A stretch of 64,000 bases of DNA from Hyphomicrobiales bacterium (lineage in GTDB: Bacteria > Pseudomonadota > Alphaproteobacteria > Rhizobiales > Rhizobiaceae): assembly GCA_900469965.1 (NCBI GenBank), contig UBZP01000021.1, forward strand, positions 29,632 to 93,631, given 5' to 3'. The notes beneath the pieces were generated by a model that saw nothing but the letters and a program-made list of their open reading frames with translations, did not search any database and was not told where the DNA came from. Shown here in pieces: positions 36,576 to 39,447 of the stretch (its first letter is position 1; every line of letters starts with the position of its first letter). A program made the position numbers and the translations under genes.

Positions 36576-37144
36576 CCACCGGCAGCACGCTCGTGGCCCC
36601 GCGGGCCAAGGGGATCATCGATCCCGCGACCGGCAAGCCGGTCGGCAGTGACGACGCCTTTTTCGGCGAGATCAACAATGAGCTGGCCGACAAGGGCTTC
36701 CTCGTCACCTCCACCGACGAACTGATCACCTGGGCGCGCACCGGCTCGCTGATGTGGATGACCTTCGGTCTCGCCTGTTGTGCGGTCGAGATGATGCAGC
36801 TCTCCATGCCGCGCTACGACGTCGAGCGCTTCGGCTTCGCCCCGCGCGCCTCGCCGCGCCAGTCCGACGTCATGATCGTCGCCGGCACGCTGACCAACAA
36901 GATGGCGCCGGCTCTGCGCAAGGTCTACGACCAGATGCCCGAGCCGCGCTACGTCATCTCGATGGGCTCCTGCGCCAATGGCGGCGGCTACTATCACTAT
37001 TCCTATTCGGTGGTGCGCGGCTGCGACCGCGTCGTGCCGGTCGACATCTATGTGCCGGGCTGTCCTCCCACGGCAGAAGCGCTGCTCTACGGCGTGCTCC
37101 TGCTGCAGAAGAAGATCCGCCGCACCGGCACGATCGAGCGCTAA
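36566..37144 (+). CDS. nuoB: NADH-quinone oxidoreductase subunit B
   Basis: 192-aa subunit carrying the N2 [4Fe-4S] cluster, the last electron donor to quinone. The ligand cysteines are the adjacent pair Cys71-Cys72 (GLACCAVE), one in GSCANGG and one in [10 protein letters not shown]. The ATG at 36566 overlaps nuoA; an in-frame ATG seven codons earlier is inside nuoA and less likely. Confidence 0.97.
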
Positions 37145-37162
37145 GGGCAGGGGACTGACATC

Positions 37163-37765
37163 ATGAGCGAGGCTCTTCAGGAGCTTGCCTCCTATCTCGG
37201 CGAGGTGCGCGGAAACCTGATTTCCGAGACCAAGCTTGCCTATGGCGAGCTGACGCTTTCGACCACCGGCGAAAATCTGATCGCACTGCTGACCTTCCTG
37301 CGCGACGACGTGCAGTGCCGGTTCGTCAACCTGATCGACGTCTGCGGCGTCGACTGGCCGGCCCGCGAGGCGCGCTTCGACGTGGTCTACCATCTGCTGT
37401 CGCCGCAGCAGAACGTCCGCGTCCGCGTCAAGGTCGAAACCTCGGAATTCGAACCGGTGCCCTCCGCCTTCGGCGTCTTTCCGGGCGCCGACTGGTTCGA
37501 GCGCGAGGCCTACGACATGTACGGCATCCTGTTCACCGGCCATCCGGACCTGCGCCGCATCCTGACGGACTACGGCTTCGAGGGCCATCCGCTGCGCAAG
37601 GACTTCCCGACCACCGGCTTCGTCGAGGTGCGCTACGACGACGAGGTCAAGCGCGTCGTCTATGAGCCGGTGCAGCTCAGGCAGGAATTCCGCAACTTCG
37701 ACTTCCTCTCGCCCTGGGAAGGCACGGACTACGTGCTGCCGGGGGATGAGAAGGCGAAGCAGTAG
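37163..37765 (+). CDS. nuoC: NADH-quinone oxidoreductase subunit C
   Basis: 200-aa 30-kDa-type subunit of the peripheral arm, separate from NuoD (not the fused NuoCD of enterics). Family blocks are [17 protein letters not shown] and [25 protein letters not shown], the latter around residues 110-137, and the closing [10 protein letters not shown]. It is followed 3 bases later by the left inverted repeat of the inserted cassette, so the usual direct junction to nuoD is interrupted. Confidence 0.97.
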
Positions 37766-37768
37766 AAC

Positions 37769-37798
37769 AGGCAGTCGCCAATAGGCAGTAGGCAGTAG
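37769..37798 (+). repeat. Left 30-bp inverted repeat of the cassette
   Basis: Built of four heptanucleotide units (AGGCAGT, CGCCAAT, AGGCAGT, AGGCAGT) plus AG. It matches the reverse complement of 38205-38234 at 27 of 30 positions; the three differences form one block (CGC against AGG). It starts 3 bases after the nuoC stop codon. Confidence 0.95.
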
Positions 37799-37860
37799 AA
37801 ACAAGGAGGGCGGCAACGGCGATTAACTCGTACCAGGACCTATCGGTATGGCAGCGTGCC

Positions 37861-38196
37861 ATGGATCTTGCGGTCGAATGTTACAGTTTGACCAAGGGAT
37901 TTCCGAGAGAGGAAGTCTACGGTCTTGTATCCCAAATTCGGCGAGCGTCGTCATCGGTGGCGGCAAACATCGCGGAAGGGTATGGGCGGGACGGTACCGG
38001 GTCCTACGTACAGCATCTGAAAATTGCGCAGGGATCTCTGAAGGAGCTTGAAACGCACCTTCTGCTATCGTCGCGGGTCGGCCTTCTCCCGATTGAAGGG
38101 ATCGGCGCTGCGATGGCATTGAGCGAAGAGACTGGCAAGATGCTGAGATCGCTGATCCGACGTTTGCAGGACACACGGAATGAGAACGACGATTAA
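37861..38196 (+). CDS. Four-helix-bundle protein (23S rRNA intervening-sequence protein family)
   Basis: 111 aa from the first ATG. The family pattern is strong: YSLTKGFPREEVYGLVSQIRRA, SVAANIAEGYGR and HLKIAQGSLKELETHL-type helices (TIGR02436/PF05635). Related proteins are encoded in 23S rRNA intervening sequences, and Avd of diversity-generating retroelements shares the fold. The conserved N-terminal piece INSYQDLSVWQRA is also encoded in frame from 37822, but no ATG, GTG or TTG opens it. An ACG at 37816, 6 bases after a perfect AGGAGG, stands where the ATG should be. Either ACG/ATT initiation gives 124-126 aa or the protein is N-truncated. GC is lower than in the neighbours. Confidence 0.85.
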   Translation: MDLAVECYSLTKGFPREEVYGLVSQIRRASSSVAANIAEGYGRDGTGSYVQHLKIAQGSLKELETHLLLSSRVGLLPIEGIGAAMALSEETGKMLRSLIRRLQDTRNENDD

Positions 38197-38204
38197 AGAC
38201 TTGG

Positions 38205-38234
38205 CTACTGCCTACTGCCTATTGCCTACTGCCT
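38205..38234 (-). repeat. Right 30-bp inverted repeat of the cassette
   Basis: Four heptamers on the plus strand (CTACTGC, CTACTGC, CTATTGC, CTACTGC) plus CT, beginning 8 bases after the four-helix-bundle stop and ending 22 bases before nuoD. It can pair with 37769-37798 in the nuo transcript to form a long stem closing a loop of about 406 bases. Confidence 0.95.
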
Positions 38235-38256
38235 CTCAGCGCGGAGCGCGCCACCC

Positions 38257-39447
38257 ATGACCGAACACAACGTCCGCAACTTTAACATCAACTTCGGCCC
38301 GCAACATCCGGCAGCGCACGGTGTTTTGCGCCTCGTGCTGGAGCTGGACGGCGAGATCGTCGAGCGGGTCGATCCGCATATCGGCCTGTTGCATCGCGGC
38401 ACCGAGAAGCTGATCGAGACGAAGACCTACCTGCAGGCCGTGCCCTATTTCGACCGCCTCGACTACGTGGCGCCGATGAACCAGGAGCATGCCTATGCGC
38501 TCGCCGTCGAGAAGCTGCTCGGCGTCGAGGTGCCGATCCGCGGCCAGCTGATCCGCGTGCTCTATTCGGAGATCGGCCGCATCCTGTCGCACCTCCTCAA
38601 CGTCACCACGCAGGCCATGGACGTCGGCGCGCTGACGCCGCCGCTCTGGGGCTTCGAGGAGCGCGAGAAGCTGATGGTGTTCTACGAGCGCGCCTGCGGC
38701 TCGCGCATGCACGCCGCCTACATCCGTCCCGGCGGCGTCCACCAGGACCTGCCCGACCAGCTGGTCGAGGACATCGGCAAGTGGATCGACCCCTTCCTCA
38801 AGACGGTCGACGACATCGACGAACTGCTGACCGGCAATCGCATCTTCAAGCAGCGCAACGTCGACATCGGCGTCGTCAAGCTGGAGGATGCCTGGGCCTG
38901 GGGCTTCTCGGGCGTGATGGTGCGCGGCTCGGGTGCCGCCTGGGACCTGCGCCGCTCGCAGCCCTACGAGTGCTATTCCGACCTGGAATTCGACATCCCG
39001 ATCGGCAAGAACGGCGACTGCTACGACCGCTACCTGATCCGCATGATCGAGATGCGTCAGTCGGCGAAGATCATGCGCCAGTGCGTCGACCGGCTGCTGG
39101 GCGATGCCCGGGTCGGCCCGGTCTCCTCGCTCGACGGCAAGATCGTGCCGCCGAAGCGCGGCCAGATGAAGCGCTCGATGGAGGCGCTGATCCATCACTT
39201 CAAGCTCTATACCGAGGGCTATCACGTGCCGGCCGGCGAGGTCTACGCCGCGGTGGAGGCGCCCAAGGGCGAGTTCGGCGTCTATCTCGTCGCCGACGGC
39301 TCCAACAAGCCCTACCGCTGCAAGATCCGCGCCCCGGGCTATGCCCACCTGCAGGCGATGGATTTCCTGTGTCGCGGGCATCAGCTTGCCGACGTGTCCG
39401 CCGTACTGGGCTCGCTCGACATCGTTTTCGGTGAGGTGGACCGCTGA
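38257..39447 (+). CDS. nuoD: NADH-quinone oxidoreductase subunit D
   Basis: 396-aa 49-kDa-type subunit forming the quinone pocket with NuoB. Family blocks are [21 protein letters not shown] at residues 11-31 (His and quinone-site loop), [26 protein letters not shown] and the C-terminal DPVMGEVDR-like FGEVDR end. The length is normal. Its ribosome-binding region lies just outside the right cassette repeat. The stop overlaps the next start by one base (TGATG). Confidence 0.97.

Follow-up and report, generated by a model that had tools for sequence, protein, structure and literature searches.

An IVP gene between inverted heptamer arrays separates nuoC from nuoD and recurs at other gene junctions

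Background

The window analysed here, a 64,000-nt stretch of DNA, contains a 466-bp unit that separates nuoC from nuoD. Inside it, one gene matching PF05635, the family of 23S rRNA intervening-sequence proteins (IVP), lies within 30-bp inverted arms composed of heptamers. What is this unit, and how does it come to sit inside a complex I operon? Structures of IVP-family members have been solved, to our knowledge no function is known for them, and the unusual abundance of heptamer repeats in bacterial genomes has been remarked upon with no cause given. The initial annotation, made from the sequence of the window, had described inverted arms around one IVP-family gene between nuoC and nuoD, and the coordinates and the PF05635 match reported below agree with that description.

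Architecture of the element in the nuo operon

The unit and its surroundings consist of the following features:

37163..37765, + strand: nuoC, the upstream host gene (ORF list and profile match)
37763..37765, + strand: nuoC stop codon TAG, within GCAGTAG, a near-unit of the array
37769..37798, + strand: left inverted arm, heptamer array AGGCAGT-CGCCAAT-AGGCAGT-AGGCAGT-AG
37803..37809, + strand: Shine-Dalgarno-like AAGGAGG (sequence reading)
37816..38196, + strand: IVP gene (PF05635 / TIGR02436 / NF008911), likely start
38205..38234, + strand: right inverted arm, reverse-complement heptamer array
38257..39447, + strand: nuoD, the downstream host gene (ORF list and profile match)

The left arm starts 3 bases past nuoC and nuoD starts 22 bases past the right arm, the same spacings as annotated before, with the nuoC stop ending at 37765 and the nuoD start at 38257. 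The products of the two host genes correspond to Complex1_30kDa (nuoC) and Complex1_49kDa (nuoD) in Pfam. As inverted repeats the arms are matched at 28 of 30 positions. The inverted repeat of the initial annotation therefore stands while its figure of 27 does not, and its four heptamers per arm apply to the left arm only loosely, the second unit there being degenerate (CGCCAAT). The coding strand of the left arm is the G/A-rich strand.

The lower GC content that had been ascribed to the unit relative to its neighbours was found: 55.2 % for the element and 54.7 % for the ORF compared to 64.0 % for nuoC, 65.2 % for nuoD and 65.9 % for the window as a whole. Only 5 of 509 windows of 375 nt have a GC content as low as that of the ORF. 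When the 64-kb window was scanned with a 19-nt array pattern at up to three mismatches, all six matches fell inside the two arms, compared to a mean of 0.01 matches in 100 shuffles. The arms are paired in the predicted RNA fold (z -5.28; 0 of 100 shuffles fold equally well). A search of positions 37100-38700 against Rfam at E values up to 1 found no match. While nuoC of the congeners ends in ..KAKTN followed by TGA, nuoC of the window ends in TAG, and in many of the nuo copies found among relatives the nuoC stop lies inside the first array unit.

The IVP gene and its product

The gene matches PF05635 (E 9.5e-35, 119.5 bits compared to a cut-off of 33.8), TIGR02436 (116.9 bits compared to a cut-off of 24) and NCBIfam NF008911 (E 2.2e-50). 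The conserved domain begins at 37822 with no in-frame ATG, GTG or TTG 5' of it; the mechanical ORF start, an ATG at 37861, lies within the conserved domain. An ACG at 37816-37818 stands six bases past AAGGAGG and, on this positional reading, is likely the IVP start codon.

A survey of 58 IVP genes of the family Rhizobiaceae found 13 with no in-frame ATG, GTG or TTG in the roughly 20 codons 5' of the conserved domain. Eight of these 13, read by eye, show an ACG in frame at one to three codons 5' of the domain, after a Shine-Dalgarno-like stretch (window positions 37803-37824 and loci L014, L015, L020, L027, L028, L051 and L068). This pattern suggests ACG initiation in these IVP genes.

The AF2 model of the product (pLDDT 97) is all-helical with four helices, the fold of the solved PF05635 members. 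It aligns with 2gsc, the solved IVP structure of XCC0516 from X. campestris, at a TM of 0.83-0.88 and with 2rld at 0.73-0.79. In its four-helix fold and in a weak profile match the protein also resembles Avd of diversity-generating retroelements (TM 0.78 to 4dwl, E 0.018 or worse). It differs from Avd in that the Avd profiles remain below their cut-offs (NF033474 at 27 bits compared to 80, PF22296 at 26.3 compared to 40) and in its immediate neighbours, nuoC and nuoD, with no adjoining reverse transcriptase gene. The Pfam search of the element gene found no transposase, just PF05635 and a sub-cut-off match to bAvd at E 0.001. Thirteen residues are invariant across 36 diverse IVP proteins. The polar residues among them line one face, with Q38, R41, S45, N49 and E52 in helix 2, R56 at its end, and S72, E75 and T78 in helix 3 (helix bounds taken from the model).

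Selection was estimated on 18 IVP genes that share a junction next to an acyl-CoA dehydrogenase gene. The median dN/dS is 0.07 over 143 of 153 gene pairs, ten having been dropped with dS undefined or at least 1.5, and this purifying selection refers to the acyl-CoA dehydrogenase junction, not to the nuo copies. Judging from these substitution patterns, the IVP protein is maintained at that junction, and because selection is strong where it was measured, the protein itself probably does something and has a role of its own. The IVP protein of Xanthomonas has been described as a homopentamer (PMC4990558).

Presence, absence and sites among relatives

Is the unit an old part of the operon? Within the genus of the window, nuoC is present in seven of seven genomes and an NF008911 gene in one. 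The nuoC-nuoD junction of the six congeners holds in all six cases a short unrelated spacer with no gene and no array. Across the family, 47 of 151 genomes have an NF008911 match, 42 of them over the cut-off, and a scripted scan gave an IVP match at 58 of 59 family loci (L074, with no match, was dropped). Assigned by motif tags, these sites comprise 27 between nuoC and nuoD (three of them tagged on one side only), 13 between glutamine synthetase and an FAD-dependent oxidoreductase (gln), 13 between a circularly permuted ATP-grasp protein and alpha-E (atp) and five others; the flanking families were checked with Pfam on one example apiece. At nuo, gln and atp the IVP gene reads in the same direction as its operon. 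Elsewhere a mechanical count of co-orientation is noisy, with antisense ORFs in GC-rich genomes.

The initial annotation had proposed a non-autonomous mobile element that targets essential operons or is tolerated in them and would depend on functions from elsewhere for its movement, to be checked at the same junction in close relatives and through further copies of the repeat-gene pair. The empty junctions of the congeners, the recurrence of the pair at other sites and in other genomes, and the gene-less pairs described below all speak for mobility and for tolerance in operons: the unit is not ancestral everywhere, and other repeat-gene copies exist.

On a tree of 53 proteins (L037, L064, L073, L075 and L076 are off the tree) the site label changes 7 times compared to 24.8 times in shuffles. 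By this measure copies at one junction are mostly kin, and so few changes imply that jumps are occasional. The gln clade contains four copies at other sites, in genomes with further copies. These four look like jumps on the tree; L050, at the base of the clade, may be read in either direction. The 3' spacer of the window's element, CAGCGCGGAGCGCGCC, is common to the element of G017 (L020, from another genus) and is not found in the congeners. Since this spacer, a short stretch, is nearer to that of L020 than to those of the congeners, the window's copy may have come by junction exchange from another lineage.

The junction between an acyl-CoA dehydrogenase and an NAD-binding dehydrogenase offers a second view within one genus. 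There, 18 of 61 genomes match a filled query over its full length. From the 43 unmatched genomes 12 sites were fetched, and 11 are clean empty sites while the twelfth (L298) holds a pair lacking the gene, whose unit is a different one and whose arms match imperfectly. In a tree built from the flanks, which covers 30 of the 61 genomes, the other 31 having no locus fetched, at least four changes are forced by well-supported branches. Among the 18 filled copies there are at least six, read by eye, where the array provides the stop codon of the upstream gene.

We looked for a target-site duplication by comparing filled and empty sites at nuo, at two gene-less sites of the window's own genome, at the L048 site and at the acyl-CoA dehydrogenase site. 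None was readable; the spacers do not align base by base. In these comparisons presence and absence are plain and the exact boundaries are blurred.

Two further observations concern the sites themselves. The empty nuoC-nuoD spacers of congeners (L039, L041-L044) contain, by eye, a GC-rich inverted repeat, for example GGGTGCGCATC..GATGCAGCGCCC in L044, and a hairpin may exist here whether the element is present or not. At the L048 site (G147; L217-L226) another gene occupies in congeners the junction of the IVP element. We take this occupant to be an EamA-like transporter gene and, in G056, a ParD-like gene. The site looks like a small insertion hotspot.

Matching, breadth and polarity of the arrays

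Units observed in the family include GGCAGTA, GCGAATA, GTGAATA, GTGAGTA and GGCAGTC as well as the 8-mers GGGGAGTA and GGGCAGTA. With eight unit types set from the data themselves, a type could be assigned to both arms of 49 of the 54 family elements (L037, L073, L075 and L076 were dropped from the arm tests). The two arms agree in 45 of these 49. Shuffling the right arms within sites gives a mean agreement of 15.7 and a maximum of 26 in 5,000 shuffles. The possibility of one unit per genome was ruled out by G147, where four elements have four different units; the unit is thus a property of the element and not of the genome.

Three sets of loci were compared. Besides the family, we used 38 of 49 loci from other Pseudomonadota (ten own-family loci and one short of flank were dropped) and a multi-phylum set consisting of the best 80 of 589 confirmed loci, found by one conserved peptide pattern. 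The titles in the latter include Bacteroidota, Verrucomicrobia, Planctomycetes, Omnitrophica, Clostridia, Gemmatimonadetes and Thermodesulfobacteriota. The left arm finds its best match in its own right flank at 12 of 54 family loci, 17 of 38 other Pseudomonadota loci and 45 of 77 loci from the best 80 of 589 (three lacked flank). The own flank ranks first at so few family loci because units are shared between family elements. As a control, windows were displaced by 750-1100 nt within each locus. The inverted-repeat score exceeds that of more than 99 % of the displaced windows at 50 of 54 family loci, 20 of 38 other Pseudomonadota loci and 54 of 72 multi-phylum loci, the last again from the best 80 of 589 with eight lacking flank. 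The control is not beaten at 18 of 38 other Pseudomonadota loci, at 18 of 72 multi-phylum loci and at 12 of 30 loci from the family of G304, a genome discussed below.

Autocorrelation peaks at a period of 7 in all three sets (0.41-0.43 compared to 0.25-0.26). The arrays are also polar. On the coding strand of the multi-phylum loci, periodic left arrays are AG-only in 24 cases and CT-only in 1 (n = 43), and right arrays are CT-only in 21 and AG-only in 4 (n = 45). In the other two sets, which lean likewise, the ratios of AG to CT are 11 to 3 and 30 to 0 for left arrays, and 3 to 9 and 0 to 36 for right arrays. A G-tract is absent from many units, such as those of AAGTT- or AGCTT-type, and in some elements the arrays are made of 8-mers instead of 7-mers.

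Arrays score high in 85 of 152 IVP flanks compared to 13 of 56 other intergenic gaps of those loci, and the latter fraction indicates that arrays alone are not specific. Among eight of those 13 gaps read by eye, L143, L135 and L183 have a unit similar to that of the local IVP element and L131, L142 and L149 do not. An LSU rRNA match was found at none of 20 scanned loci of the multi-phylum 80. As far as these alignments reach, IVP genes between inverted 7-mer (sometimes 8-mer) arrays are a general arrangement, often seen and in distant phyla.

Gene-less miniature pairs

The L048 element with its flanks, used as a query, gives 115 matches in its own genome G147 compared to 2-17 in five congeners. 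From these matches 20 further G147 loci were picked by hand, and 19 of them are inverted pairs, mostly with three to six 8-mers per side and a short inside. The right inner end of the gene element, or its mirror, is borne by 18 of the 20 loci in an uncontrolled motif count. The left inner end is present at one of the 20 miniature loci (L236), which also has the right end. L236, the one locus on which this claim rests, looks like an internal-deletion derivative, and the other G147 miniatures look like copies built on one end of the element.

The window's own genome contains further gene-less pairs. At one site in its genus a gene-less pair has AGGCAGT/AGGCAAT units in G000, AGGCAAT units in G005 and degenerate AGCGAAT/AGGGAAT-like units in G001. 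Both arms change in step, by eye, and the pair is absent in four other genomes. The congener G005 has arrays and no NF008911 gene.

Two loci of G000 were of interest in their own right. On contig C28 (L257:680-1740) a nest of heptamer arrays of AGCGAGT and AGGCAGT types surrounds a 37-nt stretch present in duplicate, which looks like the insertion of pairs into other pairs. On contig C12 (L005:1476-1640) an intergenic pair without a gene surrounds a GC-rich stretch that resembles a hairpin, and miniatures of this kind might act as terminators or replace them.

A prediction for GGGAATC arrays

Rehm et al. (2015, PMC4692102) describe GGGAATC arrays in Xanthomonas that most often have four units. 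In two species the inverted pairs number 70 and 75, and they are located mostly between co-oriented genes. The arrays are called G4-forming and generally not tied to mobile elements (PMC4692102). If such arrays are the ends of IVP elements, a genome that has them should have an IVP gene between them.

The GGGAATC pattern was found in one of 369 genomes (G304) of the class of G340, probably Gammaproteobacteria, and a reversed control pattern likewise in one of the 369 (G651). The sole PF05635 match of G304 sits between inverted GGGAATC arrays, and its neighbours encode a biotin-lipoyl protein (accB) and a biotin carboxylase (accC). The match spans profile positions 1-64 only, and the gene may be broken. 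G304 has four array places in total. Two are gene-less inverted pairs, one of which has the inner sequence GGGAATCGTTCAAGC in common with the gene element.

In the family of G304, 69 of 197 genomes have a PF05635 match. Thirty of these loci were read: 18 beat the displaced control and eight precede accC, and five of the eight have matched arms of GGGATTC-, GGGAATA-, GGGAATG- or GGGAATC-type above control. G304 and its family stand in here for Xanthomonas, being one genome plus family and not Xanthomonas by name. The prediction of an IVP gene between GGGAATC arrays held in the sequence of G304. At least some of the scattered heptamer repeats hitherto without explanation seem to derive from this arrangement.

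Relation to known systems

The intervening sequence (IVS) in helix 45 of Coxiella burnetii is described as about 440 nt long with a 28-bp terminal inverted-repeat stem, one S23p ORF that is decaying, tandem heptamers GACAGAT before the ORF and a GC content lower than that of the host (PMC4990558). The nuo element resembles rRNA IVS in size, terminal stem, single family ORF, heptamers and lower GC, and its terminal inverted repeats likewise form a stem around the ORF in the predicted fold. It differs from an rRNA IVS in lying in a protein operon between nuoC and nuoD instead of in 23S rRNA, and from the Coxiella IVS in having dispersed gene-less kin and a protein that is conserved where measured. 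The element is thus a member of the IVP family with an IVS-like build, and by its location it is not an rRNA IVS.

REPIN/RAYT systems consist of short inverted pairs of a small repeat that lie scattered in intergenic regions and are akin to the ends of an element with a gene. The same holds for the dispersed small inverted pairs that are related to the ends of the gene-bearing IVP element. Unlike REPIN/RAYT, no RAYT (HUH tyrosine) transposase is found, the IVP protein being all-helical with only the PF05635 and sub-cut-off bAvd matches, and the ends consist of 7- or 8-mers in tandem, whose unit changes. On these comparisons the element behaves like a REPIN system without RAYT.

The Xanthomonas GGGAATC and Nostoc GGGGA(C/T)T repeats are likewise heptamers, the former usually in four units and many of them inverted, the latter with few inverted pairs (PMC4692102). 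Both are described as G4-forming simple repeats, and the terms '23S' and 'helix bundle' are absent from the text of that article (PMC4692102). Intergenic heptamer arrays described as of unknown cause also include the TAACTGA repeats of Beggiatoaceae and the heptanucleotide repeats of Geobacter (PMC4679880, PMC2700814). A class of Geobacter repeats is depicted as pairs of five heptamers that switch strand, while the TAACTGA sets are almost wholly direct repeats, unlike the inverted IVP arrays (PMC4679880, PMC2700814). Within the open-access literature, subscription papers being outside the scope, we found no paper tying PF05635 genes to dispersed heptamer arrays.

Explanations and a possible mechanism

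Comparison across genomes establishes the anatomy of the element, its patchy presence, its copies at new sites, its miniature kin and the maintenance of its protein at one site. From these we consider it probable that the unit is a mobile element of the IVS kind in a protein operon, made of an IVP gene and inverted arrays and accompanied by gene-less miniature kin. Alternatively, the gene could be an ancestral accessory of the operon that descended vertically with many losses, its arrays forming a regulatory hairpin and not transposon ends. The clustering of the IVP gene tree by site (7 changes compared to 24.8 shuffled), the purifying selection where measured and the co-orientation at nuo, gln and atp speak for it. 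We nevertheless find this improbable: an NF008911 match is limited to one genome among seven in the genus and to 47 of 151 across the family, four other-site copies lie within the gln clade in genomes with further copies, gene-less pairs bear one end of the element, and an equal architecture is seen in many other genomes. We give nearly even credence to the idea that filled and empty sites are chiefly the product of homologous recombination between species at the junction, with transposition very rare. The gene lineages are site-specific, gain or loss is repeated on the flank tree, and the window's element has its 3' spacer in common with that of G017 (L020) and not with the congeners; new-site copies and dispersed miniatures, however, demand more than in-place exchange. 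Such recombination is compatible with a mobile element as the route by which the window's own copy arrived.

The arrays themselves might be slippage-prone or G-quadruplex simple repeats whose nearness to PF05635 genes is incidental, which is the G4-forming view, generally unlinked to mobile elements, of Rehm et al. (PMC4692102). Arrays are indeed also found away from IVP genes. Inverted unit-matched ends, however, flank the gene in several sets, the G-tract is missing from many units (AAGTT- and AGCTT-types), and the sole GGGAATC genome of 369 has its IVP gene between such arrays, so that we hold this explanation to be very unlikely. A different question is how the arms evolve, whether or not the element moves. 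Their ends may stay matched through selection against broken RNA pairing in a processing stem instead of through copying. This is a serious possibility to which we lean somewhat less than to its opposite: a stem is predicted in the RNA, and at one gene-less site the unit, read by eye, differs among species while the two arms change together, but whole-array changes of the unit resemble copying or slippage more than pair-by-pair compensation.

Returning to a mobile IVS-like element, the IVP gene would presumably be co-transcribed with the nuo operon, and the inverted arrays would form a stem in the predicted transcript. Lying past the stop codon of one gene and before the ribosome-binding site of the next, the unit leaves the operon readable, and the array can provide the stop codon of the upstream gene. 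The hairpin is a putative substrate of RNase III, which is described as cutting the stem of rRNA IVS (PMC4990558); by analogy with IVS biology, such cleavage would separate the nuoC and nuoD messages and mask the insertion. Judged by comparison of genomes, the element moves now and then to new operon junctions, with repeated gain and loss.

As the preferred mechanism, we hypothesize that an IVP pentamer recognises the arrays as single strands, either RNA or DNA, with one unit per subunit. Reading one unit per subunit would keep the 7-nt period and the AG core fixed while the remaining unit drifts. The TRAP ring provides an analogous reading of trinucleotides. The move would be completed by an enzyme of the host. 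This may be a reverse transcriptase in view of the Avd-like fold; Avd is a partner of such an enzyme, which makes an RNA route to new sites thinkable. It is conceivable, though as a whole doubtful, that IVP elements form a pan-bacterial mobile class in which the only protein, a pentameric ring of helices, reads 7-nt units on single strands, one for each subunit, and the ends change in concert, the Xanthomonas, Nostoc and Geobacter repeats being ends and miniatures and the rRNA IVS just one landing site.

Conclusions

Linking the IVP family with heptamer repeats gives both a testable role, with the arrays as ends and the protein as their likely reader. If true, very small selfish elements can live in essential operons such as nuo and accBC, and they would do so by means of their own stop codon, hairpin and ribosome-binding site.
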